Shown here: positions 11,295 to 63,351 of the stretch, piece after piece
Layout: each line of letters opens with the position of its first letter
How positions within the stretch are numbered: position 1 is the first letter of the stretch
NCBI GenBank assembly: GCA_016191115.1
Contig: JACPPG010000070.1
Coordinates: 1-64,000 of the forward strand
Source: Planctomycetia bacterium
Lineage (GTDB): Bacteria > Planctomycetota > Planctomycetia > Pirellulales > JACPPG01
Reading direction: 5' to 3'
Length of the DNA: 64,000 nucleotides
Position numbers and translations under genes: made by a program
The notes under the pieces: model-generated
What the model was told of the DNA's origin: nothing
Seen by the model: only the letters and a program-made list of their open reading frames with translations
Database searches by the model: none

Positions 11295-11405
11295 TCGCTC
11301 GATCCTTTTTCTGCAAACCGAACCGGGGACGCTCGGCACGAGTCGCTTGATCGTAGGCGGCGTGGCGGAGGCTGTCCAGGCGCCGCCCGAAGCGCGCACG
11401 GGATT

Positions 11406-11523
11406 GCGAGGCTCCCGCCGAGCGTTGGAGAGGAGCGCACGCTGACCGAAATCCTTGGGGCATCCCTTCAGTTTGTCCCAGCCACCCGCCTCATTCTTCT
11501 GGCGGCTCGGCGGGAGCCTCGCC
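11406..11523. repeat. REP-like family A inverted pair
   Basis: An imperfect copy at 11406-11424 (last base pair of the 20-mer changed) and an exact inverted copy at 11504-11523. They lie upstream of the CopD-like gene, in the 386-bp gap to the next gene. The rest of that gap (11295-11680) shows no other feature except a GGAG ribosome site before 11681. Confidence 0.8.
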
Positions 11524-11680
11524 CTCCCCGCCGCGACGTCGTGGTCCGCCGTGGCGGAAAGCTCAGCTTCAACGCCGGCGAGTGTGGTTGGATCGACCAT
11601 CTACTTGAATCGCAGCCGCCGCGTGGCACAATCGAAGTGTGGTACGGCAGGTACGGCTGGGCTTAAGATTGGAGCATGCG

Positions 11681-11935
11681 ATGCCAGAGTTCCACGGGGC
11701 AGCCGATCACGACCGATACGTTCAGTGGCTTCGCGACCATCCGGACGGGTATGTCTTGCAGTTCAATCAAGGAACGGACATCAAGCTGCATCGGGCATCT
11801 TGCCGACGGATTGGCAGCATCGGACAACCGCCGCCGCGAGGAAGGATTTGGACTACCTATCGGAAGCGGTGTTCCGATGACCGACGGGTCCTCTTTGCAA
11901 TCTCGAACCAGCGTTGCCGGTATTGTGATCCATAG
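11681..11935 (+). CDS. Small protein with terminal CxxC pair, unknown function
   Basis: An 84-aa protein starting MPEFHGAADHDRYVQWLRDH with GGAG upstream. It has KLHRASCRRI in the middle and a C-terminal RCRYC, so three spaced cysteines and a His could bind zinc. Small bacterial proteins with an LHRA-C core and a closing CxxC are familiar to me, but I know no proven function. It lies 82 bp before the GH99-like gene in the same direction, and both are visibly less GC-rich than their neighbours, suggesting joint acquisition. Confidence 0.6.
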   Translation: MPEFHGAADHDRYVQWLRDHPDGYVLQFNQGTDIKLHRASCRRIGSIGQPPPRGRIWTTYRKRCSDDRRVLFAISNQRCRYCDP

Positions 11936-12017
11936 CGGCCAGTCGTGCGATTGAATAATGTCGCATGGGCCGGTGACCTTGCGCAGACCTAGCGTGATCG
12001 AAACGGGACGGTTGCCG

Positions 12018-13010
12018 ATGCAATTGATCCTTTTACTGTCGTTGCTTTGTCAGCTTGATCTCAAGGACTTGGAGAGTCCCACTGTCGGCTGTTGGTATCA
12101 TCCCTTCTTCAGCCTCAAGCGAGGCGAAATGCAGCACTGGAACGATGTCAAGAACTGGCAACGTCCCCTCCCGATCGGCGGGCGTTATGACATGGAAGAT
12201 CGCAAAATATTCGAACACCAGGTCAGACAGATTCGCGATTGCGGAATCTCGTTTCTCGTGTTCGACGACACAAACTGCGTCGACGTGGAGAACGGTCAGA
12301 TCGACAGGCGCATTAAGACATGGTTCGACTACATGGATGCACTGCCGGAGAAGGAACGCCTTCTATTGTGCATCGCTGCTGGCGGCGAGCTAAACGTGCA
12401 CAATAACCAGGGGTCGTGGTTGAAGAACGTTGACTACCTCTACCGTCAGTACGCAACTCGGCCTTGCTATGCCAGGCTTGAAGGCAAGCCGCTTTTCTTG
12501 TGGTACATCGACAAAGACGTATGGCCGGAATGGACGGATGAAAGATGGACGGTGAGGAAGGCATACGCGCATCACAGGCCAGAAAGCAAGACCGGGTTTT
12601 CGTGGGGCGTGCGTGGCGTCCCGTCTCCAGACAAGGAATGCATGCCAGTGATGGTCGGATGGCATCGTCCCGATAGCCCAGAGGTCTTTCCTCGTAACAA
12701 CGGAGAGTTCTACCAGCGCGGATGGCTAGAGGTGCTGCGACACCAGCCGAGGTACGTCCTATTGGCTTCGTGGAATGAGCACGCTGAGGCATGCGCGATA
12801 GAAGATACGACCGAATATCGAGATCAGTACCGTCGTCTCACGACGGGATACATTGCCGCAACACATCACAAGAGGCTAGACGGCTTCGTGTATACGATTG
12901 AGGGGACGACGGATAGCTATAAGTGGGTCAAGGATAAGCCCGCGAAGGCGACAGCCCCGCGTGGTCTTCGAACGGACATCGTAGTACCGAAAGACTATTT
13001 TCCTCGCTGA
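12018..13010 (+). CDS. GH99/GH71-like secreted glycan-associated protein
   Basis: About 330 aa. A short hydrophobic leader (MQLILLLSLLCQL) suggests export; ATG 11958 would add 20 residues before it. The body begins TVGCWYHPFF and has FLVFDDTN, KPLFLWYIDKD and the late motif LASWNEHAEACAIEDTTEYR. This pattern matches the endo-alpha-mannosidase-like (GH99-like) TIM barrels found in polysaccharide clusters, where SWNE carries an active-site Glu. No sugar cluster is adjacent. Base composition near 50 to 55 percent GC by eye, well below the surroundings, points to horizontal transfer. Substrate unknown. Confidence 0.6.
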   Translation: MQLILLLSLLCQLDLKDLESPTVGCWYHPFFSLKRGEMQHWNDVKNWQRPLPIGGRYDMEDRKIFEHQVRQIRDCGISFLVFDDTNCVDVENGQIDRRIKTWFDYMDALPEKERLLLCIAAGGELNVHNNQGSWLKNVDYLYRQYATRPCYARLEGKPLFLWYIDKDVWPEWTDERWTVRKAYAHHRPESKTGFSWGVRGVPSPDKECMPVMVGWHRPDSPEVFPRNNGEFYQRGWLEVLRHQPRYVLLASWNEHAEACAIEDTTEYRDQYRRLTTGYIAATHHKRLDGFVYTIEGTTDSYKWVKDKPAKATAPRGLRTDIVVPKDYFPR

Positions 13011-45857: not shown

Positions 45858-45930
45858 GCGGGCGTAGCTCAGTTGGCAGAGCGCTAGCTTCCCAAGCTGG
45901 ATGTCGAGGGTTCGAGTCCCTTCGCCCGCT
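45858..45930 (+). tRNA. tRNA-Gly (anticodon CCC)
   Basis: A 73-nt cloverleaf. The acceptor stem is GCGGGCG/CGCCCGC with discriminator T. The D-arm is GCTC...GAGC. The anticodon stem CTAGC/GCTGG encloses TTCCCAA, so the anticodon is CCC, reading GGG. The variable loop is ATGTC and the T-arm is GAGGG-TTCGAGT-CCCTT. CCA is not encoded. The adjacent integrase remnant suggests its 3' end was used as an attachment site. Confidence 0.93.
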
Positions 45931-45949
45931 CTTATCTGGCAAGGGTTTA

Positions 45950-46217: not shown

Positions 46218-46562
46218 CTATGCTTGCTTCACATGCGTTCGTGGTTTCTTGGTGGTCTCGGTCTCGCGAATCTGTTCAGGCAGCAGTCCCAGAAGCGCCA
46301 CCTTCGTTCGCGACGCCTCGACGAGCGACTCAGACCGTCCCTCCAGCGCGATCAGCAGTTCGCGCTCGCCGGAGTACAGGTCGGGACTATGGATGTCTAC
46401 GAGGTGGTCTCCCTTTTTCACGGTCATACCGGTGAAATCGGCATACGTCCGGTCCACGCGACCGGCCACGCGCGACGCGATGAAGGCAACATGGCGCTCA
46501 TCGTAATCGAGCTTTCCGACCGGCCTTCCTCCTGCTCGCGGATCGTGGAATTCTAGTGCCAT
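46218..46562 (-). pseudogene. CusB-type RND efflux adaptor fragment
   Basis: A 114-aa frame. GKLDYDERHVAFIASRVAGR, DFTGMTVKKGDHLVDIHSPDL and ALLGLLPEQIRETETT match the lipoyl/alpha-hairpin region of heavy-metal membrane fusion proteins such as CusB. It lacks the signal peptide and the N-terminal part, and stops right after KPRTHV, where the second lipoyl half should begin. So both ends are missing. No inner-membrane pump gene is adjacent, though a probable TolC-family C-terminus lies at the right edge. Confidence 0.65.
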
Positions 46563-46665
46563 TCACGGAGCGCCCTGCTTTGATCGAAAACGCCTGCTAT
46601 TTGGCGTCCTCGCTCAAGTGGTTGTCGAGTACGAGGCCGCGTTGATCGTTGCGGCTGCTCGTTCG

Positions 46666-47334
46666 TCACGTTGGTTGCCCGCTGGCGTAGCGAACGGGGT
46701 CGCGTAGGAATTTGTCGCGGCACTGCTCAACGCAGAAATAATATGTCCTTCCCTGATACTCAACCGAGCCGCCTGCGTCACCCATATTGATCCGCATCCC
46801 ACACACCGGGTCGAAAACGACGTTCTCTTGTTGGTATTGTTCGACGAGCGGCAGCCGCAGGTAGGCATCGACAAAGCCCAGGAGCTTCTCGTCAAGCCAT
46901 GAGGCGACGGTTACTTCGTCGATGGCGTCTAGCGGAAGCACCAATTGATCATGCCCGTCGAACTCGAAGAAAACGGGCAGGATTTCCAAGGCATAGGTGG
47001 CGATGACGCTGTGGGTGTCCCCGCCTGGCGATAGGCCGATTTCCAGCTTCGTGCTGGCTGGATAGTCTGCTGTTCGATCAAAGCGGCAGGCACACCGGTT
47101 CGCAGCCGCCCCCGGTTTTTCCACGTGGGCGTTTGGAAAGCAGCTCGCCACCCTCGCAATCCGTGGCCGGATGACCTGGTCTATCAGCCGGCTAGCAGTT
47201 TGCTCAAATAACGCCGCGCGCTCCTCGTGGGCGGTCATTTCGCGTTTGAGCGCTTCCTGACTTTCTCGACGCCGCGCTTCGGCGGCTGCCAACCTCTCTT
47301 TGATCCGCAGCTCAAGGCTCGCCAACTCGTCCAC
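46666..47334 (-). CDS. YHS-domain protein with unknown N-terminal domain, copy 1
   Basis: 222 aa. Helical residues about 1-60, a mixed domain with RCACRFDRTADYPASTKLEI and LEILPVFFEFDGHDQLVLPL, then a C-terminal YHS domain with DPVCGMRINMGDAGGSVEYQ and YYFCVEQCRDKF. YHS domains sit in copper P-type ATPases and MerP-like contexts and probably bind metal through the Cys pairs. A full paralogue of the protein at 54187-54852, with the same layout and length, in the same gene run. The start is GTG 47334 with GAGGT upstream. Confidence 0.75.
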   Translation of the reverse strand: MDELASLELRIKERLAAAEARRRESQEALKREMTAHEERAALFEQTASRLIDQVIRPRIARVASCFPNAHVEKPGAAANRCACRFDRTADYPASTKLEIGLSPGGDTHSVIATYALEILPVFFEFDGHDQLVLPLDAIDEVTVASWLDEKLLGFVDAYLRLPLVEQYQQENVVFDPVCGMRINMGDAGGSVEYQGRTYYFCVEQCRDKFLRDPVRYASGQPT

Positions 47335-47393
47335 ATCGCACCTCGGAGCACCCCTATTTTCGCAAAAAGAGCCCGGCTGCCATTCCTCACGCT

Positions 47394-47906
47394 CTACCGA
47401 GCAGTTGCGCCATGATGCGGTCCATGTTCGGCGCCCATGTGCCGGTGCTCACCCATGTCTTCCCACATGTGGCTATGTGTTCGACCGCCTTGCCAGCAGC
47501 GCTGCCAGGCGAACTCCTTGTGGTCACCGGCGCCGCCGCCGTGCATCCAGCCGTCCCGGACGCCCCCACCGCGCACCCAGTTGGCCTCCCCGTAGAACCG
47601 GCTGCAAGCCCCCGCTGAATCGCCATCCATCGGGTGGGGCATTAGCTCGACGGTATTCGCGCCGCTTCCCACGGTGATCGGCTCGTCTTCGATTGGCCGA
47701 CGGGACTTCAAGTCCTTGTCCCAGGTGTGGACCATCACCTCGCCGGTGTCCGCGTTGGCCAGCAGTTCCGCGTACGCGGTCCCACCTTTGATCGGCACCA
47801 GGTCGCCGCCGTTGGGACCTGCCGAGGCCGGCGTTCGAGAACACCCGGCGACCATCAGACCTGCCAGTAGCCCTCCCACTACGCTGGCGGCAATGAACGT
47901 CTTCAT
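47394..47906 (-). CDS. Putative lipoprotein with His/Gly-rich C-terminus
   Basis: 170 aa. A signal peptide with lipobox LMVAGC (Cys near residue 22), then a small domain with NGGDLVPIKGGTAYAELLAN and VELMPHPMDGDSAGACSRFYG. A His/Gly/Met-rich tail follows (WMHGGGAGDHKEF, THSHMWEDMGEHRHMGAEH). The tail could bind copper, nickel or zinc in the periplasm. It is translationally coupled to the LOG gene by an ATGA overlap (47903-47906). Function unknown. Its relation to metal is inferred from composition and neighbours. Confidence 0.65.
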   Translation of the reverse strand: MKTFIAASVVGGLLAGLMVAGCSRTPASAGPNGGDLVPIKGGTAYAELLANADTGEVMVHTWDKDLKSRRPIEDEPITVGSGANTVELMPHPMDGDSAGACSRFYGEANWVRGGGVRDGWMHGGGAGDHKEFAWQRCWQGGRTHSHMWEDMGEHRHMGAEHGPHHGATAR

Positions 47907-48547
47907 CTGTTAGTACCTCCCATGCGAAGGCCCTCATTTGGGTAGCACGGACAGCGATATCCCGCCGAGGAATATCGCCGCAGCAGCGAATCGACCAGTC
48001 GTTCAGGCTCCGCTTCGTAGAACACTTCCGCTCCCGTGGTCTTCGCGGCAGCGAGGCTGTCCACAATTCCCGGCAGCGCCGCCGTGATGCCACCGGTTTC
48101 CGCGAGGACTCCGATCAGTTTGCCTTCCTCGTACGCGATGGCGAATTCCCCCAACGTGCCCGATCGACCACCGACCACGACGATCGCGTCGCAACTGCGG
48201 ATGTTCACCAATTCGCGTCCCATGAGCCCAAGTCCGGTGAAGATCAGCACGTCGTACTCCGCGTAGGGCGAGCCGTACACTTCGACGTGCTCCTTCAAAT
48301 TGACGGCTGCCGAGATGCCGATCGTATGCCCTCCGGCCTCATGGGCGCCGAGCACGGCCGCATGAGGCAGGCCGGGGCACGCCCCTGTCAGCAGGCAACA
48401 GCCCTGGTTGGCGATCGTCCGGCCCAGCCGCCGGCAGCGTTCAAGCAAGTCAGGGGCGACCGTCCCGCCCGCCGATCCCATGACGCCGATGCGGATTTGC
48501 ACGCCGGTCAATCGGTCGCGCATGACGTGATTCGACTTCGAGTGCAT
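47903..48547 (-). CDS. LOG/SLOG-family (TIGR00725-like) nucleotide-binding protein
   Basis: 214 aa. It shows IRIGVMGSAGGTV, CCLLTGACPGLPHAAVLGA and IVVVGGRSGTLGEFAIAYEEG, the Rossmann-like SLOG core of lysine-decarboxylase-like phosphoribohydrolases and their TIGR00725 relatives. The usual PGG-GT-E appears as GGRSGTLGE. The role in this operon is unknown: the relatives hydrolyse cytokinin ribosides or sense nucleotides. A one-base gap separates it from DUF2231 upstream and an ATGA overlap joins it to the lipoprotein downstream. Confidence 0.75.
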   Translation of the reverse strand: MHSKSNHVMRDRLTGVQIRIGVMGSAGGTVAPDLLERCRRLGRTIANQGCCLLTGACPGLPHAAVLGAHEAGGHTIGISAAVNLKEHVEVYGSPYAEYDVLIFTGLGLMGRELVNIRSCDAIVVVGGRSGTLGEFAIAYEEGKLIGVLAETGGITAALPGIVDSLAAAKTTGAEVFYEAEPERLVDSLLRRYSSAGYRCPCYPNEGLRMGGTNR

Positions 48548-48548
48548 T

Positions 48549-49037
48549 CTAATGTCGTTCCATGCCGTCGTGAGCATGGCCCTGCTGGATGTCGTGCGAC
48601 AGCAACTCGGGGGCGACGCCCGCGCCGCCGTGATAGACAATCACGCCGCCGAGGTAGCCGGTCACCATCAGCAACAGCGCGCCGACCGCTTCCGCCGAGA
48701 GCAGCGAACCGGTCGGCGGAGATTGACGCGCCTTCCAGCGTTTGACGCACACCCAGGAAAACAAAAGCACAGTCGCGACCGCTAAGCCGAGATGCCACCA
48801 CATCAGCGTATGCGCCTGCTCGGTGTGAGCTGGGACCGTATAGAAGCTGAGCAGCCCGGCCCCGCCGGCAAGCCAGCCCAGCAGGGCTCCCGCGACAAGC
48901 AATCCAGCCGCGGGGCGGGCGAGCGCCGGATGCCTTCGCGCCATGAAGTCCGTGACGATGCCGCTTAGAAGCAGCGCGATGGGAAAATGCACCAGCATCG
49001 GGTGAATCTCCCAGATGTTTGGAGTAGGCAGGTTCAT
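48549..49037 (-). CDS. DUF2231 four-helix membrane protein
   Basis: 162 aa with four transmembrane helices. It starts NLPTPNIWEIHPMLVHFPIA, the classic DUF2231 opening with an H-P-x4-H-F-P motif, suggesting heme or quinone contact. Further His in AHTLMWWHLGLA and in GGVIVYHGGAG could ligate heme; the tail is His-rich (DIQQGHAHDGMERH). ATG 49037 has GGAGGA seven bases upstream. A redox membrane component is plausible in this run; evidence is positional. Confidence 0.8.
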   Translation of the reverse strand: MNLPTPNIWEIHPMLVHFPIALLLSGIVTDFMARRHPALARPAAGLLVAGALLGWLAGGAGLLSFYTVPAHTEQAHTLMWWHLGLAVATVLLFSWVCVKRWKARQSPPTGSLLSAEAVGALLLMVTGYLGGVIVYHGGAGVAPELLSHDIQQGHAHDGMERH

Positions 49038-49074
49038 GGGTTCGTCCTCCAAAGTTTTCTTGACTCTTATGGGA

Positions 49075-49884
49075 CTAGTGGTGCTTATAGAATCCCACGC
49101 CCTTGATGTCGTTCCACGAGGTCGTCTGATGGCACAAGAAACACTGATTGACCTGAGCGTGCTCCTGACCGGCGACTCTCGCGGAGACCATGTGGAAATG
49201 GCCCATGTAGTGACTGGGCGGGGCTTGATGGCATTGCGAGCAATCCGTCGAGCTGGGGGAGGGGTGACGGAAGTCCGCGATCGACCAGCTCGTCGTCACG
49301 TGGCACTCGGCGCAATCGCGACCAAAAAACCTGTAATGGGGGTCCTTGCTGCCGTGACACGTCTCGCAATTCAGGACGGCTTCCAACGCAGAGACGTGTT
49401 GGTGGCCTTGGGGAAGCTCATTGGTCGCCTGGTGGTGATTGATCCAGGCAATCAGTCGTTCGTACGTTTCATCATCCGGCTCGGCACGCGCGGCTTGCCG
49501 AATTTGCCGCAACCCAATCTTGGCGAGTGCCTGGTGATCCATCTTGGTCGGGCGCTGCTCGACACCCTGGTGCTCGGGATGGCATTCGGCGCAACTCGTG
49601 ATCGTGGCGTGAAAGGCAGTCGGTTGGCGTTGCAAGAGTGATGGATTGTCGGCATGGCACGCGATGCACTTGCCGGCCTCCGGTCCCTTTACCGCGGTGT
49701 GGCAAGCGGCGCAGTTCTGCTCCAGGAATGCGTGTCCAGCGGATAGCCGGCCGGGGCGCGCTTGTCGCATCCAGGTTTGTGCCTTTCCCAAATCAGCCGC
49801 CCACCCACCGACCCAGAGGATGCCGGCAACCAGCCCAGCGACGATCGCGAGGGCAGCCCACCCGAACCGTGAGGCAGTTGTCAT
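49075..49884 (-). CDS. Heptaheme cytochrome c
   Basis: 269 aa. One N-terminal hydrophobic helix (signal or anchor, about 10-28), then seven CxxCH heme motifs: CAACH, CIACH, CAECH, CETCH, CAECH, CSQCH and CFLCH. Extra His residues (HHQ, HMV, GHFH) could be distal ligands, as in c3/NapC-like multihemes. It is periplasmic, moving electrons across or out of the periplasm. ATG 49884 overlaps the cytochrome b gene stop by four bases, with GAGGT at good spacing, so the two are coupled and probably form one complex. Confidence 0.88.
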   Translation of the reverse strand: MTTASRFGWAALAIVAGLVAGILWVGGWAADLGKAQTWMRQARPGRLSAGHAFLEQNCAACHTAVKGPEAGKCIACHADNPSLLQRQPTAFHATITSCAECHPEHQGVEQRPTKMDHQALAKIGLRQIRQAARAEPDDETYERLIAWINHHQATNELPQGHQHVSALEAVLNCETCHGSKDPHYRFFGRDCAECHVTTSWSIADFRHPSPSSTDCSQCHQAPPSHYMGHFHMVSARVAGQEHAQVNQCFLCHQTTSWNDIKGVGFYKHH

Positions 49885-50636
49885 GCGAACCACCTCAACC
49901 CGAAGTATATCGCAAAGTAGATATGCAGCGCCAGCAGGCCGTAGAGGATGAAGCTGATGACGATGTGGAACCGGAGCCAGTGGCTGAACCAGCGCTTGAA
50001 CGTTTCGTGCGTTTTAATGGCGTATTCGAGGTCGGCCATGGACTCCGTGATTCGCAGGGCACGCGCGGAAGCCGGCCACTCCGTGACGGCCCTGTCTTCC
50101 CAAAGCAGACGAGCGCCAATCCGCGACCAGAATCCAGAAATCGGCGACAGCATGGCAATCTGTCCCGGCTGAGCCGCTAACTCGGCGGCGACCTGCCGGT
50201 AGCCCACTTCGAGCTGCGTCAGCATGCTCTTTTTTTCGTGGATCAATTCGGAAAACTGGCTCATGAGATAGCGTCCGACAAAGCCGCTTAAGACCACGAT
50301 CAGCATCATGGCCGTCAGGGCGATTCCCAAGGGGCTGACGAACTTGTGGCCGGTGTGCAACAGCGCCAAGATCGGGCCGAAGATGCCGGCGTAGATGTGC
50401 CAGGTCAGCAGAGTTCGCATCGGCACGCGCCTGGTGACAAATTTCTTCAGGGGCAGAATGCGTTTGATCACCATGTAGGCCAACGGCACGAGCATGAGCG
50501 TCGCGCCTGAGATACCAAGCGTTCCTCCCCAGAAACTTCCGGCGAACCACGGTGATCGATGGATGAGGAACCCCAACCAGAGGACAAGCATCAAGACAAC
50601 TAAGCCCGTGGCAGTGAAGCGATCGTGTTCTTTCAT
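49881..50636 (-). CDS. Cytochrome b-type membrane protein
   Basis: 251 aa. About five transmembrane helices with His pairs on helices three and five: TWHIYAGIFGPILALLHTGH and HWLRFHIVISFILYGLLALH. This spacing is what bis-His b-heme proteins (cytochrome b561, ferric reductase-like) show. A charged loop of about 90 residues lies between helices four and five. It abuts the flavin/[2Fe-2S] reductase (stop and start are adjacent) and overlaps the heptaheme gene by ATGA. Predicted to carry electrons through the membrane; that role is inferred from the neighbours. Confidence 0.75.
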   Translation of the reverse strand: MKEHDRFTATGLVVLMLVLWLGFLIHRSPWFAGSFWGGTLGISGATLMLVPLAYMVIKRILPLKKFVTRRVPMRTLLTWHIYAGIFGPILALLHTGHKFVSPLGIALTAMMLIVVLSGFVGRYLMSQFSELIHEKKSMLTQLEVGYRQVAAELAAQPGQIAMLSPISGFWSRIGARLLWEDRAVTEWPASARALRITESMADLEYAIKTHETFKRWFSHWLRFHIVISFILYGLLALHIYFAIYFGLRWFA

Positions 50637-52514
50637 CTACGCCTCCACGACGACGTTGCCCTTCGCTTTGGCCTGGCAAGCCAGGATGATGCCGCGCTGT
50701 TTGTCGCCGGGCTCCAGCCCATCCTCGACGGCCATCGTCACCGAGCCGGAGAGCAGCTTCACCCGGCAGGTCCCACACGTGCCGACGCGGCAGGAGTTGT
50801 CGATTGGGACGCCAATCTCATCGGCCACGTCCAGGACGACCTTGTCGGGCGGCAAGGGCGCCGATTTATCCGACAGAGAGAAGGTGACCGTGGGGAGGGT
50901 GACTGCCGTCGTGTCCAGTCCAGCACCGGCTGGTGGCGCGGCTCGCGGCGCCGGCTCCGGCTTGCCCAGTGCCAACCCAAACGACTCGGTCTTGATTCGC
51001 TCTCGGGAGACCCCGAGCTGGGCCAGCATCGTTTTGACTGCCTCCATCATCGGCACGGGGCCGCAGACGTGCACGTAGCGTGAGGCGAGATTGGGAACGG
51101 ATTGACTGATCAGCTCCTTGGTGATCCGACCCTTTTGCCCCTTCCAATCCGTCCCCTCGGGATGCGACACGGTAATGACCACCCGCAGATTCGGATGCCG
51201 GCGCTGCAGGTAGTCGAGTTCTTCCCGGAAGATGATGTCCTGGGGCGTGCGGCATCCGTACATCAAGTAGATGTCCCCCGGCCAACATCGATCGGTAAGA
51301 TACCGAAGGACGCTCATCAACGGCGTGATGCCCACCCCGCCGCCGATGAGCAGGATGCACTTACACTCCCGCCCGGTGAAGATAAACGCGCCGGAAGGGC
51401 CGGAAAACTCCACCAGGTCTCCCTGCTGAACTCGGCTGTGGAGGAAGCCCGAAACCTCGCCTCCCTCTTCGTGCTTGACGGTGATCTCCGCGAAGTCGTG
51501 CTGCGTCGGCGAGGAAGCGATGGTGTAGCCGCGTTTGGTCGGCTTGCCGTCGAAGGGCACCGTGACCGTGAGGAACTGCCCCGGCAAGTAGCTAAACGGC
51601 AGCATGCCGCCCAGGGGGTTCATGAGCCGGAACGTCTTGACGTCGGGTGTCTCTTGAAAAATGCGGCTAATCCGCAAGTTGCCCGACCATTTCCCCGACT
51701 CGCGAGGCCCAGCCGCCGGAGAAGCGATGGAGGCGCCGCGCCGGCCGTCGGCCAGGAGAGCCGGTGTCGGCGCTGAACTCGGAACGGTGCCTGCTCCCGC
51801 GGTTAATGCGTCGCCGCCGGTCAAGCCCTGGAGCAAGACGGCGGCTCGCTGCATTTTATGAAAGTACATCCAAACCATCGCCACAGCGAAAGCGATCAAG
51901 AACCCCATCAGAAAGACGTGAAACCACGACATACCCAGCACGCCGTTGCTTGCGGGAATGGCCGGCGCGGGCAACAACCTCATCTCGCGTTTGAACCAGT
52001 CGAGAGCGACCTCCGGCGGGGCTTTTCCTTCGGCAAGGGCGCGACCGACGGATGCACCGCTCTCCAGGCGCGACAGGCCCACGCGCATTTGTTCGGTGGC
52101 GGCTTGCATCGCCGAGAGGTTGTTCCCTTGAGCGGCCTCGGCAAGCTGCTCCAACCCTTGCGATAGCACCGACAGTCCCTCCCGCATTCGCTCGTCGGCC
52201 TGCTGCTGGACCTGTTGGCGCTGTTCCGGCGTGAATTCGCCCATGTTCATCAGGGAGGGATAGAGCGCCCGCGAGGCGGTTCCGCTGCCCATCATTCCGC
52301 CCATTTCACCTTCCATGCAGCCACCCATCGCGGTCTGCCCACCGGGCTGACCGACCATCGCTCCTCCGGTGGCCTGGCCGGGGTGGTGTTTCGCGTGTTC
52401 CTCGGGCGAGATTTGGCCGTAGCCATGAGCGGCCAATGTCTGCGCGCCAATGCCAATGACAACGACCGCAAGAAATCGCCTAGCCCGACTTCTTCTGACC
52501 GAGCGGCCCATCAT
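50637..52514 (-). CDS. Membrane-anchored flavin/[2Fe-2S] oxidoreductase with periplasmic Met/His domain
   Basis: 625 aa. An N-terminal signal-like helix is followed by a periplasmic Met/His/Gly-rich, helical region (HAKHHPGQ, MGGCMEGEMGGMMG, about 30-180). One transmembrane helix (FHVFLMGFLIAFAVAMVWMY) follows. Then comes a ferredoxin-NADP reductase-type module with FLTVTVPFDGKPTKRGYTIA (FAD) and LLIGGGVGITPLMSVL (NAD), and a C-terminal plant-type [2Fe-2S] with CRVGTCGTCRVKLLSG and a last Cys in ILACQ. Positive residues after the helix put the flavin module in the cytoplasm. ATG 52514 is preferred over the long upstream frame, which overlaps the CBM48 gene. Confidence 0.85.
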   Translation of the reverse strand: MMGRSVRRSRARRFLAVVVIGIGAQTLAAHGYGQISPEEHAKHHPGQATGGAMVGQPGGQTAMGGCMEGEMGGMMGSGTASRALYPSLMNMGEFTPEQRQQVQQQADERMREGLSVLSQGLEQLAEAAQGNNLSAMQAATEQMRVGLSRLESGASVGRALAEGKAPPEVALDWFKREMRLLPAPAIPASNGVLGMSWFHVFLMGFLIAFAVAMVWMYFHKMQRAAVLLQGLTGGDALTAGAGTVPSSAPTPALLADGRRGASIASPAAGPRESGKWSGNLRISRIFQETPDVKTFRLMNPLGGMLPFSYLPGQFLTVTVPFDGKPTKRGYTIASSPTQHDFAEITVKHEEGGEVSGFLHSRVQQGDLVEFSGPSGAFIFTGRECKCILLIGGGVGITPLMSVLRYLTDRCWPGDIYLMYGCRTPQDIIFREELDYLQRRHPNLRVVITVSHPEGTDWKGQKGRITKELISQSVPNLASRYVHVCGPVPMMEAVKTMLAQLGVSRERIKTESFGLALGKPEPAPRAAPPAGAGLDTTAVTLPTVTFSLSDKSAPLPPDKVVLDVADEIGVPIDNSCRVGTCGTCRVKLLSGSVTMAVEDGLEPGDKQRGIILACQAKAKGNVVVEA

Positions 52515-52516
52515 GG

Positions 52517-52813
52517 CTAGGCGACCTCGATAACGAGGTTCATGGTCCCGAACGGGTTGGGCACGCACAGGGTACAAGCGTCCCATCGCTGGCAGCCCGG
52601 CTCGCAGCACCACGCGCCGTCGACGACGAACTTGAACTCGTAACGGCCCGGCTTCAGGTCCAGGGCCACGCTCCAATCCCCCTCGGCATCCTTCGCCATC
52701 GGCGTGGCACCTGCACTCCACTCGTTAAACGTTCCCGCCAGGAAAACTGCGTGGGCTGCTGGCGCATGGCACTGGAACACCGTCGCCTTTGTGCCTTTCG
52801 ATCGTTTGGCCAT
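52517..52813 (-). CDS. CBM48/glycogen-binding-domain protein
   Basis: 98 aa, a single domain. VFLAGTFNEWSAGATPMAKD, GDWSVALDLKPGRYEFKFVVDG and NPFGTMNLVIEV match the isoamylase N-terminal/AMPK glycogen-binding fold, including the Trp and Lys positions used for sugar stacking. Extra CCEPGCQRWDACTLC cysteines in a loop are unusual for the family and might bind metal. It lies two bases before the flavin reductase start and 9 bp after the Met/Gly-rich gene. Confidence 0.82.
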   Translation of the reverse strand: MAKRSKGTKATVFQCHAPAAHAVFLAGTFNEWSAGATPMAKDAEGDWSVALDLKPGRYEFKFVVDGAWCCEPGCQRWDACTLCVPNPFGTMNLVIEVA

Positions 52814-52822
52814 CGGTCGCTC

Positions 52823-53809
52823 CTACTTTACCGGCTGGGAATGCGATTGATGGTCTTTGGGCTGCTGCGGCGGTTCGCCGGGTCCCATGAATCCCAGCAG
52901 CATCTGGCGCTGCTCGTCGGTCAGCACCTTCGCCGCTTCGCCCACGGCACGAATGAAGTCCAATCGCTGCTGCGCTCTTAGCTTGGCGATTTCCTCGATC
53001 TTGGCTTGAATCTGATCGGCGTCCGGCTCGTCGGCGCTCGTCAATTCCCAAAGCTGCTGTTCGGCCTCGTTGATCTTCCGTTGCGTTGAAGCCTTGGCGA
53101 GCAAGGCGGCTTGCTTGAGCCGGTTCAACTCTTGCTGTTGAGCCGTCTCCAGCGAGATATGCTCCGGGTGATCCAGGAAAAAGCCGGTGGCGCCGATGTG
53201 GTAGATGTGCGATGCGCCGGGGAAGCCAGGCAGGGCCGAAGCGCGCAAGCCGCTTGGAGAACCACCTTGGGGACCCATTGAGCCCATCCCCATCATCCCC
53301 ATCATCCCGGCCATCTCCATGCTCATCTCGTCGGCGTCCATTCCTTCCATGCCTGCCATACCGCCCGCGGCCCCGGCCGGCGCCATGGGCATTTCTCCGC
53401 TGTCGTCCATCATGCCGCCCTTCATCGCGCCACCCTTGCCCATGCCGCCGCCCATGCCGCCGCCCATGCCGCCGCGCATGCCCGCGCCGCCGCCCATTCC
53501 GCCAGCGGTGGCGGGCTTGCGCCCCATCATGCCGCCCTTCATCCCGCCCATCCCTTGCGCGGCGCCAGGCGCCGGCGTGGTTGAGCCCGGTGGCTGGTTG
53601 GCGACGATGCTCGCCTCCAGCCGCGCGACCGCGGAGCGGAGTTCCGCTATTTGCGCCGCGAGGTCCGGCGCCCCGGTCGCTACTCCGCCCGATTGTTGGG
53701 TCCGCCTGGGCGGGTCGGCGGGAGGGTTCGACCGCTGGGCATTTGCCACAAGCGGATGGACGAGTGAGGCAATGGCGAGGGCCGGCATGCCGAAGAGAAT
53801 ACGTTTCAT
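52823..53809 (-). CDS. Met/Gly-rich periplasmic protein with Spy/CpxP-like C-terminus
   Basis: 328 aa. Signal peptide (about 1-24), then a coiled segment (DLAAQIAELRSAVARLEASI), an about 85-residue Met/Gly-rich region (GMGGMKGGMMGR, GGMGGGMGGGMGKGG and MAGMMGMMGMGSMG), then a helical domain of about 110 residues. The last has HPEHISLETAQQQELNRLKQ and EIAKLRAQQRLDFIRAVGEA, ending LTDEQRQMLLGFMG. The C-terminus fits LTXXQ-type metal-resistance chaperones (Spy, CpxP, ZraP). Met clusters are typical Cu(I) ligands. Start ATG 53809. Confidence 0.78.
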   Translation of the reverse strand: MKRILFGMPALAIASLVHPLVANAQRSNPPADPPRRTQQSGGVATGAPDLAAQIAELRSAVARLEASIVANQPPGSTTPAPGAAQGMGGMKGGMMGRKPATAGGMGGGAGMRGGMGGGMGGGMGKGGAMKGGMMDDSGEMPMAPAGAAGGMAGMEGMDADEMSMEMAGMMGMMGMGSMGPQGGSPSGLRASALPGFPGASHIYHIGATGFFLDHPEHISLETAQQQELNRLKQAALLAKASTQRKINEAEQQLWELTSADEPDADQIQAKIEEIAKLRAQQRLDFIRAVGEAAKVLTDEQRQMLLGFMGPGEPPQQPKDHQSHSQPVK

Positions 53810-53860
53810 AGGTCTGACCTCCTGTAGTTGGAGAACGCGATTATTTTTGGGCCACGCTGG

Positions 53861-54124
53861 TCATAAGGACGCGACCGGCCCTGTTATCGGCACCTCGATC
53901 GAATTTACGACGTTGACGACTCCGGCGACGCGGCGGGCAAATTCGGTCGCCATTTGCTTCTCATGGAAGGTCTGCACGCACCCCGTGAGCAGCACGCGGT
54001 CGTGCCGCACTTTGATGCGAACGTGACGCAGGGCCGGAAGGCGTGCGGCGAGGAAAAACTGGCGGACTCGCCGCTCGAGGTCGAGCCCCGTCTCAAACTC
54101 GCTGGCCGCGTGCTGCTCGTCCAT
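53861..54124 (-). CDS. BON-domain protein
   Basis: 87 aa. RRVRQFFLAARLPALRHVRI and VLLTGCVQTFHEKQMATEFA, then RRVAGVVNVVNSIEV, match a single BON domain (alpha-beta fold, usually periplasmic or membrane-associated). ATG 54124 has weak context; TTG 54130 is possible. No signal peptide is evident. It may contact membranes or proteins. It lies between the Met/Gly-rich gene and the YHS gene in the same run. Confidence 0.82.
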   Translation of the reverse strand: MDEQHAASEFETGLDLERRVRQFFLAARLPALRHVRIKVRHDRVLLTGCVQTFHEKQMATEFARRVAGVVNVVNSIEVPITGPVASL

Positions 54125-54186
54125 ATGCAATCTAGCTCTAGCCCCGACCAGGGCGCCGGCCCGCCCGGCAAATCGGCATAATGGCG

Positions 54187-54852
54187 TTATCCCGTCTCGA
54201 ATCGGATGTACCGCGGTGGTTCGGCGACAAAGCGGCTTCGGCAGTCCTCGCTGCAGAAGTAATACGGGTGTCCGCGATACTGAGTGGTCGTCTGCGCGGT
54301 CTCACGGGTGATCCGCATGCCACACACCGGATCGACGACGGCATCTTGCTCGAAATCCTCCTGACCGCGATCGAGCCGCAGGTACGTATCCAAAAACTCC
54401 AGAAGCTTCCTCTCGACCCATGCGGAAATGGCTTGGTCGTCCGGTGCAGCAAGCGGCACGCGCAGCTTGTCGTGGGCGTCGAACTTGAGAAAAACAGGCA
54501 TCATGTACAATTCGTAGGCTATCGCGAGATTCTCGATGGCTTCGTCGTGCTCGACCGCGATTTCCAGCTTGGCAGTCGCTGGGAAGCGATTGGAGTAGCC
54601 AAACCAACATGCACATCGTTCTTTCTGGTCCGCTTTCGCAAGTTTCGCGTTGTCGAAATAGCTAGCCAGCTTCTCCATTCGCGGACGAACGATCGTTGCA
54701 ACGATACGATCCGCGACCTGCTCAAATCTTTCGCGGCGTGGAGCAAGCTCAGCCATGAACTGCTGAACCTGGCCCGGCGACCAGGCCGGCTCCTGTCGTG
54801 CAGCCGCCAGGCGCGATTCGACCTGTCGCGAGAATTCCGCAAGCTCTGCCAC
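54187..54852 (-). CDS. YHS-domain protein with unknown N-terminal domain, copy 2
   Basis: 221 aa from GTG 54852 with GGAGGA six bases upstream. Layout as for 46666-47334: a helical start, a mixed domain with RCACWFGYSNRFPATAKLEI and YMMPVFLKFDAHDKLRVPL, then a YHS domain DPVCGMRITRETAQTTTQYR with YYFCSEDCRSRF. The two proteins share the RCAC core and the (L)EI...PVF.(E/K)FD.HD pattern, so they are true paralogues and the N-terminal domain is uncharacterised to my knowledge. The protein is probably cytoplasmic and probably binds metal. Confidence 0.75.
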   Translation of the reverse strand: MAELAEFSRQVESRLAAARQEPAWSPGQVQQFMAELAPRRERFEQVADRIVATIVRPRMEKLASYFDNAKLAKADQKERCACWFGYSNRFPATAKLEIAVEHDEAIENLAIAYELYMMPVFLKFDAHDKLRVPLAAPDDQAISAWVERKLLEFLDTYLRLDRGQEDFEQDAVVDPVCGMRITRETAQTTTQYRGHPYYFCSEDCRSRFVAEPPRYIRFETG

Positions 54853-54946
54853 AATCCTTCCTCCGGCGTCGTCAACTAACGGACAGGGCTCTGGCTGTGG
54901 CCACGGCCGCAACCAGAGCCCTTCTCGCCGGCACGTTGAGGTCGCC

Positions 54947-55486
54947 TTACTTAGTCGTGGGCATCTTCGCAGCCAGCTTTTTCATCAGTTTGTCGTGCTC
55001 GGCGATCGCCTTATCCAGTGCGTCAAAGGCGTCGTCGCAGCACTTCGCCGATCCTTCGACATCCACCTCGGGTTTCGCGCAAAGCTCAGCCATCGCGACC
55101 TGGTGCTTGGCCGCCTCCTTGACGTGCTTGTCGATCACATCCAGCGACGCCAGCGTCTCCTTGTCCCCCGCCGCGTGCTTCCGCATGTCGACCAGGTGCT
55201 TCTGGAACAGCTTGATGTTATGGCCTATGCCTTCGGCGTGCTCTTTGGCCACTTCTGGATTGACTGGCCGCTTGCTCTGGCGAACGTCCCGAGCGTACGC
55301 GCGGTAGTCGGAGGCGTAGTCGCGGGCGTGATACAGGGAACGAGACGCCGATCGGCTGCTCGTCCCATATTCGCCGCGGAGTTTGGCGCCCGCGTCGCGG
55401 ATTTGCGCGTTGGCCGTGCCCGCGACTCCAACAGCCACGGCCGCCAAGGCGGCCGCGGCAACGCACCTTTTGTTGAGATAGTTCAT
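54947..55486 (-). CDS. Secreted helical protein, QIRDAGAKLRG family, copy 1
   Basis: 179 aa. Signal peptide (about 1-27) and then QIRDAGAKLRGEYGTSSRSA, followed by SLYHARDYASDYRAYARDV and a helical body with two Cys clusters (ELCAKPE and SAKCCDDAFD) and KAIAEHDKLMKKLAAKM at the end. Its paralogue is at 62824-63351. A four-helix-bundle fold similar to small periplasmic metal-binding proteins is likely but unproven. AAAGG lies ahead of ATG 55486. It is the first gene of the run and divergent from the ECF sigma gene. Confidence 0.7.
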   Translation of the reverse strand: MNYLNKRCVAAAALAAVAVGVAGTANAQIRDAGAKLRGEYGTSSRSASRSLYHARDYASDYRAYARDVRQSKRPVNPEVAKEHAEGIGHNIKLFQKHLVDMRKHAAGDKETLASLDVIDKHVKEAAKHQVAMAELCAKPEVDVEGSAKCCDDAFDALDKAIAEHDKLMKKLAAKMPTTK

Positions 55487-59926: not shown

Positions 59927-60950
59927 GGCAGTAACCTCCCAGATTGATAGCGCCCATCACCATGCCGGTGATCTTCCCTCCACTGCTAACCGCTAACCGC
60001 CCAAGATATCTTCGCCTGCGAAGAGTTGCAACAATTTTCGGCGGAATTTCGGAATTCATCGGTCGCCGGTCGAGTCGACCCGATGCGCTGCATCTTGGCC
60101 GCCCGCGCCGGCTTCCGCAAAGGGGTTTGGGCAAGCCTGACCAGCCTGACCTTGCGGACCCGGCTGGGGGGGGCCGCACCTCTTGCTCGCGTTCATCCGG
60201 CGCTACAAGAACAGCACCTTGCCGTAGTGGCGACAGCCGACTCGGCAACTCCGACCGGTCGCGTGGCGTACGACTCAGGCCGTTCGCGCCTGGCATCCGC
60301 GCCCGATCCGCGCCCGACCTGGGTTGCGTCGCGCGCGATGTGTTCCCGTGGGACAGCCCAAACTGAAACCAAGGCGGCGGGTCGATGTGTGCCGCGGCTG
60401 GTATCCTTCGGCTCGTTCGTCAGTGGCCCACTCCCCAGACAACAGCCGCCAAGCCAGCGACAAGTATCACGAAGACGATCCGCAAGACGATCCTTGCGCC
60501 ACGCGAAGGTGGCGGCGGTTGATGCCACGAAGCGTGCATCGGTGCGGGCTGATTGGCATCACTCGAGTCGGAAGGTCTTCGGTGACTTTTGAAGACGCAG
60601 ATCAGCTTGGTCAGAGACCACGAAAGCAGAAGTCGTAATCGACCCCGTTGGTATCGGACACGAGCACGCCTGCGTGGCTCTCATGGTGCAAACCCCGGCG
60701 CTAGACCTTTCGCGATCGTCAGGGTTTACCAGGCCGTTGACGCAAGTGCTGTACAGCACAACGGATATGCATGGCTTGGCGTGAATTCACGGGGCCGTGC
60801 GTTCCGATAGCCATATCTGAGTCGAACGGATTCGGCAATCCGCTCGCGCTATCTGCACCCGCGCAGAATAACGCTTTTGTCATGCCCGTGGTTGCTGTTT
60901 TGGCGGACAGGCCGCGGCTCTGGACCCCAACTCGAACGGAGTCACAAATC
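59927..60950. other. Kilobase with little coding potential
   Basis: Between the dockerin gene and the beta-barrel gene. Apart from the 39-codon frame at 60420-60539 I see no coding sequence that looks real. No terminator or tRNA is visible. A CTAACCGCTAACCGCC doublet lies at 59987-60002. The direct upstream region of the beta-barrel gene (60840-60950) shows AT-richer patches, but no consensus promoter. Confidence 0.4.
60420..60539 (-). CDS. Candidate 39-aa membrane microprotein
   Basis: ATG 60539 to TGA 60420. It encodes MHASWHQPPPPSRGARIVLR followed by a hydrophobic helix IVFVILVAGLAAVVWGVGH. The pattern, a Pro/Arg-rich head and a single transmembrane helix at the C-terminus, is typical of genuine small membrane proteins. 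No Shine-Dalgarno sequence is apparent. It is alone in a kilobase without other genes. The evidence is composition only. Confidence 0.35.
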   Translation of the reverse strand: MHASWHQPPPPSRGARIVLRIVFVILVAGLAAVVWGVGH

Positions 60951-62366
60951 ATGTGGTCTTCCAAGGAAGCGATGGCGATTGCCATTGCCGGCCTGTTGGC
61001 CGTCAGCTCCGCCAACGCGGAAGAGGCATTTCGGCTGCCTCCGCCTGTGCGGCAAACCGCCTACGAGTACGACAGCTACTACCGGCAAGAGTCCGCCAGC
61101 CCCAGCGACGCGCCGGCGGACGCAGCGGGCAGCAATTCCTGCGGTGAGAAGAACGGCTGCGGCGAGAAAGAAGAGAAGAACGGCTGCGGCAAGGAAGAAG
61201 AAGAGAACGGCTGTGGCGAAGAGAACGGCTGCGACGGCGACGACGCTGCGGCCGCGGACGCCCCGTGGAGCATGATGGAATTGTTCCCGAAGGACGGCTG
61301 GTTCAAGAAAAAACGGATCGTGATCGGCGGGTGGACGGAAGTCGGCTACCAGAACAAGCCTGACGGTGCGTTTACGGGCAACGGCCCCTTCTTGACGGAG
61401 CCCAACGGCACCCCCGCCAATGGAGAGTGGTTGAGGCCGAACTTAAATCAACAGTATTTGTACGTGGAGAGAGTGGCCGACGGGACCACTGGGACCGACT
61501 GGGGGTTCCGTGCGGACATCATGTACGGCGTCGATGGCAATGAAGGCCAATCGTTCGGCAACACTCCCGGCCGGTGGGACTTCCTGAACGGCTGGGACCA
61601 CGGCGTCTACAATTGGGCGATGCCTCAGCTCTACGGGCAGGTCGCGCTCGGCGAGAAGTTGTCTATCAAGGTAGGCCACTTCTACACGCCAACCGGGTAC
61701 GAAGTCGTGCCGCCGCAGGGTAACTTCTTTTTCAGCCGCCAAATCATGTGGTATAACGCTGAACCGTTTACGCACACCGGCGCGCTGGCAAACTACAAGG
61801 TCAACGATAAGCTGACCCTAGTCGGCGGATGGGTGCTGGGGTGGGATACCGGGTTCGACCGGCTTCGCGGCGGCAGCATGGCACTCGCTGGATTCGCGTA
61901 CAATTTTTCCGAAAAAGCCGTTCTGACGTACTTCGGCGCCTATGGCAACTTCGGATGGCGGGGGGATGGGCAGTTGACGGGGTTCATATTCTCAAATAAG
62001 TGGACGGATAAGTGGACCACCGTGCACCAGTTTGACGTCTTATCGACAAACAACCCCACGACATTCCGCACGGATGGCATCGCCAATAACTCCGTGGGCA
62101 TGGAAAACTACGTCTTCTACGAAATCACAAAGAAGCTGTTCGCTGGCGTGCGTGTGGAGTGGTGGAAGGCCGATGGCACTTCGTACAACACCTTGACGTA
62201 CGGTGTAAATATCAAGCCGAGCAAGAATGTGCTTATTCGGCCGGAAATACGCCATCTTTGGGCTCCCGGCGCTCCCGCCGGCGCACCGGACACGATTACC
62301 CGCAACATATCCAACGTGTACGGAAATTCGACGGTCGTTGGGATCGACACGGTCATCCTGTACTAG
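60951..62366 (+). CDS. Outer-membrane beta-barrel protein with Cys repeats
   Basis: 471 aa. Signal peptide (about 1-24). Residues about 60-100 hold repeated Glu/Lys/Asn-Gly-Cys units (KNGCGEKEEKNGCGKEEEE, then NGCGEENGC and DGDDAAAADA). The remainder, about residues 115-471, is strand-rich with alternating aromatics (VIGGWTEVGYQNKP, VGHFYTPTGYEVVPPQGNFF, FAGVRVEWWKADG) and ends NSTVVGIDTVILY, as in the planctomycete BBP2-type porins. Probably a porin. The Cys repeats would face the periplasm and could bind metal or form disulfides. ATG 60951 has a GGAG site. Confidence 0.8.
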   Translation: MWSSKEAMAIAIAGLLAVSSANAEEAFRLPPPVRQTAYEYDSYYRQESASPSDAPADAAGSNSCGEKNGCGEKEEKNGCGKEEEENGCGEENGCDGDDAAAADAPWSMMELFPKDGWFKKKRIVIGGWTEVGYQNKPDGAFTGNGPFLTEPNGTPANGEWLRPNLNQQYLYVERVADGTTGTDWGFRADIMYGVDGNEGQSFGNTPGRWDFLNGWDHGVYNWAMPQLYGQVALGEKLSIKVGHFYTPTGYEVVPPQGNFFFSRQIMWYNAEPFTHTGALANYKVNDKLTLVGGWVLGWDTGFDRLRGGSMALAGFAYNFSEKAVLTYFGAYGNFGWRGDGQLTGFIFSNKWTDKWTTVHQFDVLSTNNPTTFRTDGIANNSVGMENYVFYEITKKLFAGVRVEWWKADGTSYNTLTYGVNIKPSKNVLIRPEIRHLWAPGAPAGAPDTITRNISNVYGNSTVVGIDTVILY

Positions 62367-62823: not shown

Positions 62824-63351
62824 ATGCGCTCGGTCAAGTACGTTTCCGTTGCCATTGTCGGAGTCGCCGTTGTCGCGGCCGTCGCCAGGGCGCAGATCCG
62901 CGACGCTGGCGCCAAGCTACGCGGCGACTACGGCGGAATGAACCGCTCCGCGAGCCGATCTCTCTACCACGCGCGGGACTACGCCTACGACTACAATGCG
63001 TACGCGCGGGACGCGATTGAGAGCAAGCGCCCCGTGACCCCGGAAATGGCGCGACACCACTCCGAGGGGCTCGGGCAAAATATCCAACAAGCCCAAAAGC
63101 ACTTCACGCAGGTGCGGAAGCAGGCCGGCACGGACAAGGAAACTCTGGCATCGCTGGATTTGATCGACAAGCACCTGAAAGACGCCGCCAAGAGCCACGC
63201 CGACATGCACGAAATGTGCATGAAAGACGAGGTCGATGCGCAGGGCTCGATGAAGTGCTGCACCGACGCCACGCAGGCGCTTGAGAAGGCGATCGCGGAG
63301 CACGACAAGCTGATGAAGAGGCTTGCCGCGAAAAAGCCGGCGGGCAAGTAA
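62824..63351 (+). CDS. Secreted helical protein, QIRDAGAKLRG family, copy 2
   Basis: 175 aa. A shorter signal peptide (about 1-24), then QIRDAGAKLRGDYGGMNRSA, SLYHARDYAYDYNAYARDAI and a helical body with MHEMCMKDEVDAQGSMKCC and KAIAEHDKLMKRLAAKKPA. It shares the whole layout with 54947-55486 on the opposite strand about 7 kb away. The paired Cys-Cys and His/Met residues hint at metal binding. GGAGGG lies before ATG 62824. A strong terminator follows. Function unknown. Confidence 0.72.
   Translation: MRSVKYVSVAIVGVAVVAAVARAQIRDAGAKLRGDYGGMNRSASRSLYHARDYAYDYNAYARDAIESKRPVTPEMARHHSEGLGQNIQQAQKHFTQVRKQAGTDKETLASLDLIDKHLKDAAKSHADMHEMCMKDEVDAQGSMKCCTDATQALEKAIAEHDKLMKRLAAKKPAGK

Follow-up and report, generated by a model that had tools for sequence, protein, structure and literature searches.

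The window analysed here, a stretch of 64,000 nucleotides from a Planctomycetia bacterium (assembly GCA_016191115.1, contig JACPPG010000070.1, positions 1 to 64,000), contains three adjoining genes whose sequences indicate that they very probably encode a three-protein transmembrane electron relay: a membrane-anchored reductase (FNR), a b-type cytochrome (cytb), and a heptaheme cytochrome c (MHC). We read this unit, with a probability of about 0.5, as a horizontally spread, NAD(P)H-driven relay that reduces metal in the periplasm, the conversion of Cu(II) to Cu(I), or the reduction of Ag(I), being its most likely job. The unit lies within a run of 13 consecutive minus-strand frames at 46218-55486, in a 6.0-Mb assembly of 93 contigs. 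This run had been pointed out in a preliminary description made from the sequence alone and was borne out by open reading frame calls and Pfam/NCBIfam scans, with all frames present and domain families assigned. The three genes are as follows.

50637..52514, minus strand: FNR, membrane-anchored NAD(P)H reductase, 625 amino acids (aa), with Pfam FAD_binding_6, NAD_binding_1 and Fer2
49881..50636, minus strand: cytb, predicted diheme b-type cytochrome with five transmembrane helices (TM), from invariant histidines and profile homology
49075..49893, minus strand: MHC, predicted periplasmic heptaheme c-type cytochrome with an N-terminal anchor or signal, seven CXXCH motifs, and Pfam MtrC-II and Cytochrom_c3_2

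The redox genes had been described as adjacent or overlapping by four bases. The FNR and cytb frames indeed abut and those of cytb and MHC overlap, but the four-base overlap holds only with the ATG at 49884, and the GTG start gives 13 bases. The FNR start is most likely the ATG at 52514, right after the stop codon of a CBM48 gene, rather than 52721.

Conservation and transfer of the three-gene unit

With cytb as the query, a match was found in 42 of 294 genomes of the phylum, its own included; five others were close (51-61% identity) and 36 were weak. All five close genomes carry FNR, cytb, and the heptaheme cytochrome gene in the same order. A Spy-like gene adjoins FNR in three of them and lies kilobases upstream in L032, and in L035 the contig ends first. 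A wider collection of genome contigs yielded 65 cytb loci, in which FNR stands upstream in 64 and MHC downstream in 62, and every missing partner coincides with a contig end (FNR in L078; MHC in L092, L098, and L106). The start of the contig cuts FNR in several loci, and in L075 the N-terminal part of FNR alone precedes cytb. As labelled in the records, 45 of the 65 loci belong to Planctomycetota, five each to Pseudomonadota and Nitrospirota, and three to Verrucomicrobiota, with single loci in Hydrogenedentota, Chloroflexota, Bacteroidota, Nitrospinota, Acidobacteriota, and Binatota (ten phyla in all); most are metagenome bins, so the single cases may be misbinned. The Chloroflexota locus (L069) falls among Planctomycetota in the tree described below.

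The order of the redox genes is thus kept far beyond close relatives. The distance matrices of FNR, cytb, and MHC across 60 loci were correlated with r = 0.70, 0.67, and 0.75, against a maximum of 0.20 in 1000 permutations, which places the reductase and the cytochromes in one conserved cluster and not in separate ones. Because the three-gene order recurs across many phyla, the arrangement seen in the window is not attributable to chance. The spacing within the unit does vary: about 0.8-1.1 kb of DNA is interposed between cytb and MHC in several loci, eight of these with an extended cytb, and 2.3 kb separates FNR from cytb in L076. In L065, a DDE-type transposase gene (10906-12369; Pfam DDE_5 and DDE_Tnp_1) is inserted between cytb and MHC.

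The suggestion that all thirteen genes form one set did not hold up. FNR, cytb, and the heptaheme cytochrome alone are constant, and the ten genes outside this core are loosely attached. A single machine built from all thirteen was rejected, as among the loci examined only one close relative, L042, keeps most of the order (YHS-BON-Spy-CBM48-FNR-cytb-MHC-DUF2231-DUF1622-LOG-lipoprotein). A multicopper oxidase gene is found upstream there, with a CusB frame some 5 kb further on.

The unit has spread by horizontal transfer between phyla, and plasmids are among the routes. A tblastn search located cytb in 52 of 72,556 plasmid records, 26 of them typed as conjugative, with carriers including Sphingobium, Alteromonas, Variovorax, Spirosoma, Methylophaga, and Pontibacter. 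A concatenated tree (FastTree, 61 tips, 916 columns, midpoint root) unites the window module with those of L042, L043, and L044 (a Methyloversatilis bin); the next to join are Parahaliea, Thalassolituus, and a Methylophaga plasmid. Node support from the window up to this last group is 0.97-1.0, and most other Planctomycetota are placed elsewhere. The copies of the Methylophaga plasmid and of Thalassolituus are near-identical (branches of 0.01), and nearby DUF411 and DUF1622 genes match at 100%.

Based on composition, tree position, and context, we count the window region as acquired. The first 46 kb of the window have a G+C content of 0.61-0.70 (mostly at least 0.64), the remainder one of 0.61-0.65. 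A truncated CusB frame (46218-46562) lies about 290 bases from a tRNA-Gly gene at 45858-45931, whose 3' end faces the region. This gene was rejected as an integration site, its 3' end being single in the genome (allowing up to 2 mismatches) and none of eight integrase matches lying on the same contig. Carriage by phage was also rejected, with no match in phage records and one weak partial match in viral contigs (34%, residues 37-124).

Predicted electron path and related systems

The residues expected of such a path are strongly conserved. In cytb, H26, H80, H94, H97, H224, and H238 are invariant in all 42 aligned sequences and include two HX13H pairs, H80-X13-H94 and H224-X13-H238, situated on TM3 and TM5. 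TM4 carries an SGXXG motif (S117, in at least 90%; G118; G121). Lys and Arg are concentrated in the loops preceding TM3 and TM5, and because of these positive-inside charges we place the two loops, that is, the side of FNR, in the cytoplasm. The AlphaFold2 model of cytb is confident and helical (mean per-residue confidence, pLDDT, 86). A Foldseek search with this model gave no match at E <= 0.001, the hit to SpNOX (E 2.3) being weak and without meaning, and profile searches of the PDB gave nothing credible for cytb, its distant relatives, or MHC.

In eight loci (L045, L049, L051, L053, L058, L064, L066, and L068), an extension of about 300 aa is fused to the C terminus of cytb. All eight extensions have the two-Cys motif SCAAVSCP, and that of L058, the sole one scanned, matches DUF547 (E 1.3e-17). 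By topology, the extension would be periplasmic.

FNR is predicted to consist of a signal or anchor, a periplasmic segment with an HxxHH motif and a Met-rich stretch, a helical domain, a single TM, and cytoplasmic FAD, NAD, and [2Fe-2S] domains. A profile search of the PDB led to benzoate dioxygenase reductase and its kin. Among 39 aligned sequences, R328, Y330, S334, G393-V394-G395, T397, P398, C484, and G485 are kept in all, as are the [2Fe-2S] cysteines 575, 580, 583, and 613. The N-terminal His 40, 43, and 44 of HxxHH are kept equally strictly (39/39), with the Pro after the motif in 38; Met71 is kept in 39, and Met74 and Met75 in 36. A fold model of the N terminus from the single sequence was poor (pLDDT 61) and was left unused. 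MHC has exactly seven CXXCH motifs in 67 of the 68 loci with an MHC match; L064, where a contig end cuts the gene, has three. Ten further His outside the heme motifs are invariant in six aligned sequences, a number that would allow each of the seven hemes to be ligated by two His.

The conservation of these ligand and cofactor residues (42/42 for cytb, 39/39 for FNR, and 67/68 for MHC) supports the path proposed in the preliminary description, from NAD(P)H over FAD, [2Fe-2S], and b-hemes to seven c-hemes. FNR would draw electrons from cytoplasmic NAD(P)H and pass them via FAD to its [2Fe-2S] cluster, which would hand them to the cytoplasmic-side heme of cytb (H80/H224). From there, they would pass on to the heme on the periplasmic side (H94/H238) and finally to the seven-heme cytochrome in the periplasm. 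Electron flow in this outward direction is probable.

The cytochrome b is not without relatives. Excerpts of He et al. 2017 (PMC5566968) describe the inner-membrane proteins of putative porin-cytochrome clusters (PCC) as having five helices with SGXXG and WX3HX13H motifs, and mention shorter ones that lie beside periplasmic multiheme cytochromes, mostly next to a further redox protein and with no porin. The PCC3/PCC4 inner-membrane family in these excerpts resembles cytb in its five TM, SGXXG on TM4, HX13H on TM3 and TM5, and gene position beside multiheme cytochromes c. In other genomes of the phylum, the five loci L037-L041, assigned as PCC3-like by gene content and not against the authors' own sequences, encode cytochromes with 10-26 hemes and a distant cytb relative. 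Four of the five have a pyridine-nucleotide reductase frame (with 4Fe-4S domains in L037, the sole one scanned), and four have a frame of 555-580 aa taken as an outer-membrane barrel (without a Pfam match in L037). The hhalign comparison of the two kinds of cytb gave a probability of 99.7 (E 1.2e-26), and because of this profile homology we regard cytb not as wholly new, but as a branch of the superfamily noticed in 2017. The module nevertheless differs in having seven hemes instead of 10-26; an FAD/[2Fe-2S] FNR in place of the 4Fe-4S/pyridine-nucleotide protein of L037; no WX3H spacing on TM3 of cytb (L76, W79), TM5 having W220; no porin among the thirteen genes in the Pfam/NCBIfam scans; and a metal-island context.

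Other systems share parts of this design. In MsrPQ-Fre, which is linked to copper stress, a flavin reductase feeds a membrane b-heme protein and then a periplasmic acceptor, whereas the module has a heptaheme acceptor, a dedicated reductase gene, and no molybdenum MsrP domain among its thirteen genes. The Cbc-type complexes of Geobacter (CbcL) also couple a b-type cytochrome to a periplasmic multiheme cytochrome c but, unlike the module, are quinol-linked and are not known to have an NAD(P)H reductase or a copper context. The FRE/NOX/STEAP proteins follow the same route from NAD(P)H over FAD and two b hemes to an outside acceptor. They also share the HX13H pairs (PMC5566968, excerpts). In the module, by contrast, the dehydrogenase forms a membrane-anchored subunit of its own, which additionally bears a [2Fe-2S] cluster and, on the periplasmic side, a metal-binding-like segment; a heptaheme cytochrome c is added, and matches to Pfam Ferric_reduct (PF01794) are weak (11 of 42 cytb sequences at E up to 0.1, best 0.0027; none for the cytb of the window). 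Excerpts of PMC7558416 ascribe a similar NADPH-to-heme logic to eukaryotic cupric reductases and describe CcoG, for which bacterial Cu(II) reduction is likewise proposed; CcoG has two tetranuclear iron-sulfur clusters, whereas FNR has Fer2 only and no [4Fe-4S] ferredoxin domain. Identity with the Sideroxydans ircABCD iron cluster was rejected, since ircABCD, as far as excerpts of its source describe it, encodes mono- and diheme cytochromes. The combination of FNR with a heptaheme cytochrome, its conservation across phyla, and its metal context were not found among the top matches listed from the open-licence PMC literature, and a term search of the main text of two papers on Alteromonas metal genes (PMC4781885 and PMC8478169) found no mention of "cytochrome."

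Metal context and competing explanations

The preliminary description had linked the cluster to metal handling, and the surroundings of the module strengthen this link. Metal markers (multicopper oxidase, CopB, P-type ATPase, RND pump parts, and DUF411) were sought within about 10 kb of the module in the 41 loci that span 15 kb or more after removal of four near-duplicates, and in 20 control stretches of 20 kb, which were taken at fixed positions (1.0 and 3.0 Mb) from the genomes of ten planctomycetes, including one that carries the module. At least one marker was present in 31 of the 41 loci and in none of the 20 controls (16/26 inside Planctomycetota and 15/15 outside). The module is recurrently linked to genes for metal efflux or for copper oxidation, as a component of copper/silver resistance islands would be; counted by themselves, multicopper oxidase and CopB gave 22/41 against 0/20. 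Nine of 11 plasmid stretches examined from the 52 records (L107-L112, L133, L136, and L137) have, within about 12 kb, genes annotated for copper or heavy metals or a set of RND efflux genes. On the contig of the window itself, positions 67-80 kb encode a TRASH-like protein (below the cut-off) and, within 70-80 kb, a heavy-metal-binding-domain protein, a CusB of 717 aa, an RND pump (frame of 1535 aa), an OEP protein, and the terminal part of a multicopper oxidase.

Spy-like genes were found in 33 of the 41 loci against 0/20 controls, in all 33 upstream and on the same strand; 15 of them end less than 900 bases from the FNR match and the others lie up to 4.3 kb away. Genes for glutamate dehydrogenase (GluDH; 14/41), CBM48 (12/41), and DUF1622 (10/41) were also absent from the controls, as were those for the CPA1 antiporter (7/41 vs 0/20) and YHS proteins (5/41 vs 0/20; not significant). 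The set of GluDH, gnd, AdhP, GAPDH, and glgP was represented in 16/41 loci and 2/20 controls. Glycogen-related genes (CBM48-like, glgP, isoamylase, and debranching enzyme) recur near the module, for example at 52517-52813 in the window and in L110, L135, L053, and L054; gnd and GluDH genes likewise recur there. Literature searches on DUF1622 and DUF411 returned nothing relevant among the matches listed.

A role of the relay in copper or silver handling is likely; that a metal is also the electron acceptor is a more tentative proposal, with the odds leaning slightly against it. The periplasmic HxxHH of FNR is the kind of site that would suit Cu(II), and the Met-rich stretch after it the kind that would suit Cu(I) or Ag(I). 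This tethered segment and the Spy-like protein may therefore present Cu(II) and take up Cu(I) or Ag(I), and reduction of Cu(II) to Cu(I) (or of Ag(I)) would leave the metal in a form accepted by Met-rich carriers, CusCBA, and P-type ATPases. In its most specific and somewhat less probable form, the proposal is a dedicated metalloreductase complex, driven by NAD(P)H with FRE-like logic, whose three subunits would end in a heptaheme wire and in a Cu(II)-His/Cu(I)-Met site that is tethered covalently. Such a complex might have spread over about nine phyla by plasmids and other transfer as part of copper/silver islands, often bringing along genes that would supply it with reducing power (those for glycogen, pentose-phosphate, or glutamate dehydrogenase enzymes).

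Bacterial copper resistance is commonly attributed to efflux, sequestration, and the oxidation of Cu(I), and to our knowledge a dedicated, energy-consuming reduction step in the periplasm is absent from this picture. If the proposal is correct, a widespread plasmid-borne relay in metal islands makes the question of periplasmic reduction directly testable in cultured strains, and proteins annotated as hypothetical, "iron reductase," or "cytochrome c3 family" would gain a role.

Several points weigh against metal reduction. The main difficulty is the multicopper oxidase that co-occurs with the module (22/41 together with CopB), as copper-resistance oxidases turn Cu(I) into Cu(II), the opposite reaction (PMC5566968, excerpts). 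Unless the two act on different pools or under different conditions, the relay would have to serve some other acceptor in the periplasm. Ten of the 41 longer loci show none of the metal markers and eight have no Spy-like match, and the contrast of 31/41 with 0/20 was obtained with marker queries drawn from module-bearing loci and controls that are all Planctomycetota; the P-type ATPase and RND queries, moreover, do not tell copper from other metals. Two of the 11 plasmid stretches (L134 and L135, from Legionella anisa and Bradyrhizobium BTAi1) show no metal genes, and cytb is without a significant fold match in Foldseek. In Alteromonas macleodii pAM1A3 (L111, 11926-16711), the module runs directly into [NiFe] hydrogenase genes downstream, which suggests the hydrogenase as a possible electron partner and would fit another role or direction.

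Among other acceptors, a periplasmic repair or detoxification enzyme is the strongest candidate, although an unlikely one: in copper stress, the relay could feed the reduction of peroxide, disulfides, or methionine sulfoxide, as MsrQ does for MsrP. The Met-rich neighbours, namely the Spy-like protein and the FNR N terminus, are targets of oxidation, and the two-Cys extension fused to cytb in eight loci, with its DUF547 match in L058, also speaks for this reading. However, family scans found no MsrP-like, peroxidase, or Dsb-type domain among the thirteen genes (related loci were not searched for such enzymes). We give still less credit to a redox-balance or oxygen-scavenging valve, which would dump surplus NAD(P)H on O2 or on the multicopper oxidase and lower oxygen around copper. 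The glycogen- and NAD(P)H-related neighbours would accord with it, as would the fact that 22 of the 41 longer loci have a multicopper oxidase or CopB gene, but the oxidase is no constant partner, and ten invariant His that suffice for bis-His ligation of seven hemes in MHC fit a wire better than an oxidase.

Inward flow, in which a periplasmic donor (H2 via a hydrogenase, Cu(I), or Fe(II)) would reduce NAD(P)+ through the relay, is about as improbable as the valve; related porin-cytochrome inner-membrane proteins have been modelled as inward conduits to quinone (PMC5566968, excerpts). The position of the module directly upstream of hydrogenase genes in pAM1A3 speaks for such flow, but a hydrogenase small subunit was found in one of 76 loci, and NAD(P)H-related enzymes recur nearby. 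Electron transfer from Cu(I) to NAD+ is also steeply uphill. It is very unlikely that the relay detoxifies some other metal or oxyanion (chromate, tellurite, or gold) by reduction: low-potential multiheme cytochromes do reduce many metals non-specifically, but copper names dominate the 11 annotated plasmid stretches, whose gene tables, though incomplete, name no mercury, arsenic, chromate, or tellurite genes.

Other genes of the window

The ten frames around the core and a divergent regulatory pair are listed below; counts of loci refer to the surroundings of the module in 76 loci.

54947..55486, minus strand: secreted protein of 179 aa, no known family, with a paralog at 62824-63351 (plus strand)
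54187..54912, minus strand: YHS-domain protein 2 (family scan); 8/76 loci, with the same gene-order position in L042
53861..54130, minus strand: BON-domain protein (family scan); 1/76 loci, namely L042, where the order is kept
52823..53809, minus strand: Met/Gly-rich Spy/CpxP-like protein, predicted periplasmic, upstream of FNR; Metal_resist/LTXXQ just below Pfam cut-offs
52517..52813, minus strand: small AMPK1/CBM48 glycogen-binding-like protein immediately upstream of FNR (Pfam AMPK1_CBM/CBM48)
48549..49052, minus strand: DUF2231 membrane protein (Pfam), loosely associated; 4/76 loci
47903..48640, minus strand: LOG/LDcluster4 protein (family scan), loosely associated; 5/76 loci, two of these being one place
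47394..47906, minus strand: lipoprotein with a His-rich tail, without family; 4/76 loci, three near-identical
46666..47334, minus strand: YHS-domain protein 1 (Pfam); 5/76 loci
46218..46562, minus strand: CusB fragment (Pfam HlyD_D23), 114 aa
55853..57365, plus strand: ECF sigma factor and zf-HC2 anti-sigma factor, divergent (family scan)

In the Pfam/NCBIfam scans, none of cytb, the lipoprotein, and the 179-aa frame reached the Pfam cut-offs (cytb exceeded no NCBIfam cut-off either), and the Spy-like frame scored 28.3 bits for Metal_resist against a cut-off of 29.2. The LOG frame as called probably begins too early, the true start lying nearer 48540. The CusB fragment is probably a remnant; frames longer than it occur near the module in L042 and L032. 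The ECF sigma/anti-sigma pair is a candidate regulator of the cluster. It is placed divergently in L042 as well, and in L032 it lies about 5 kb off the module.

The secreted proteins of 54947-55486 (minus strand) and 62824-63351 (plus strand) share 68% identity over 152 aa and are encoded about 7 kb apart on opposite strands, and homologs of the former occur near the module in L032 and L055. A BBP2 porin-like gene lies at 60771-62366, on the opposite strand and outside the operon.

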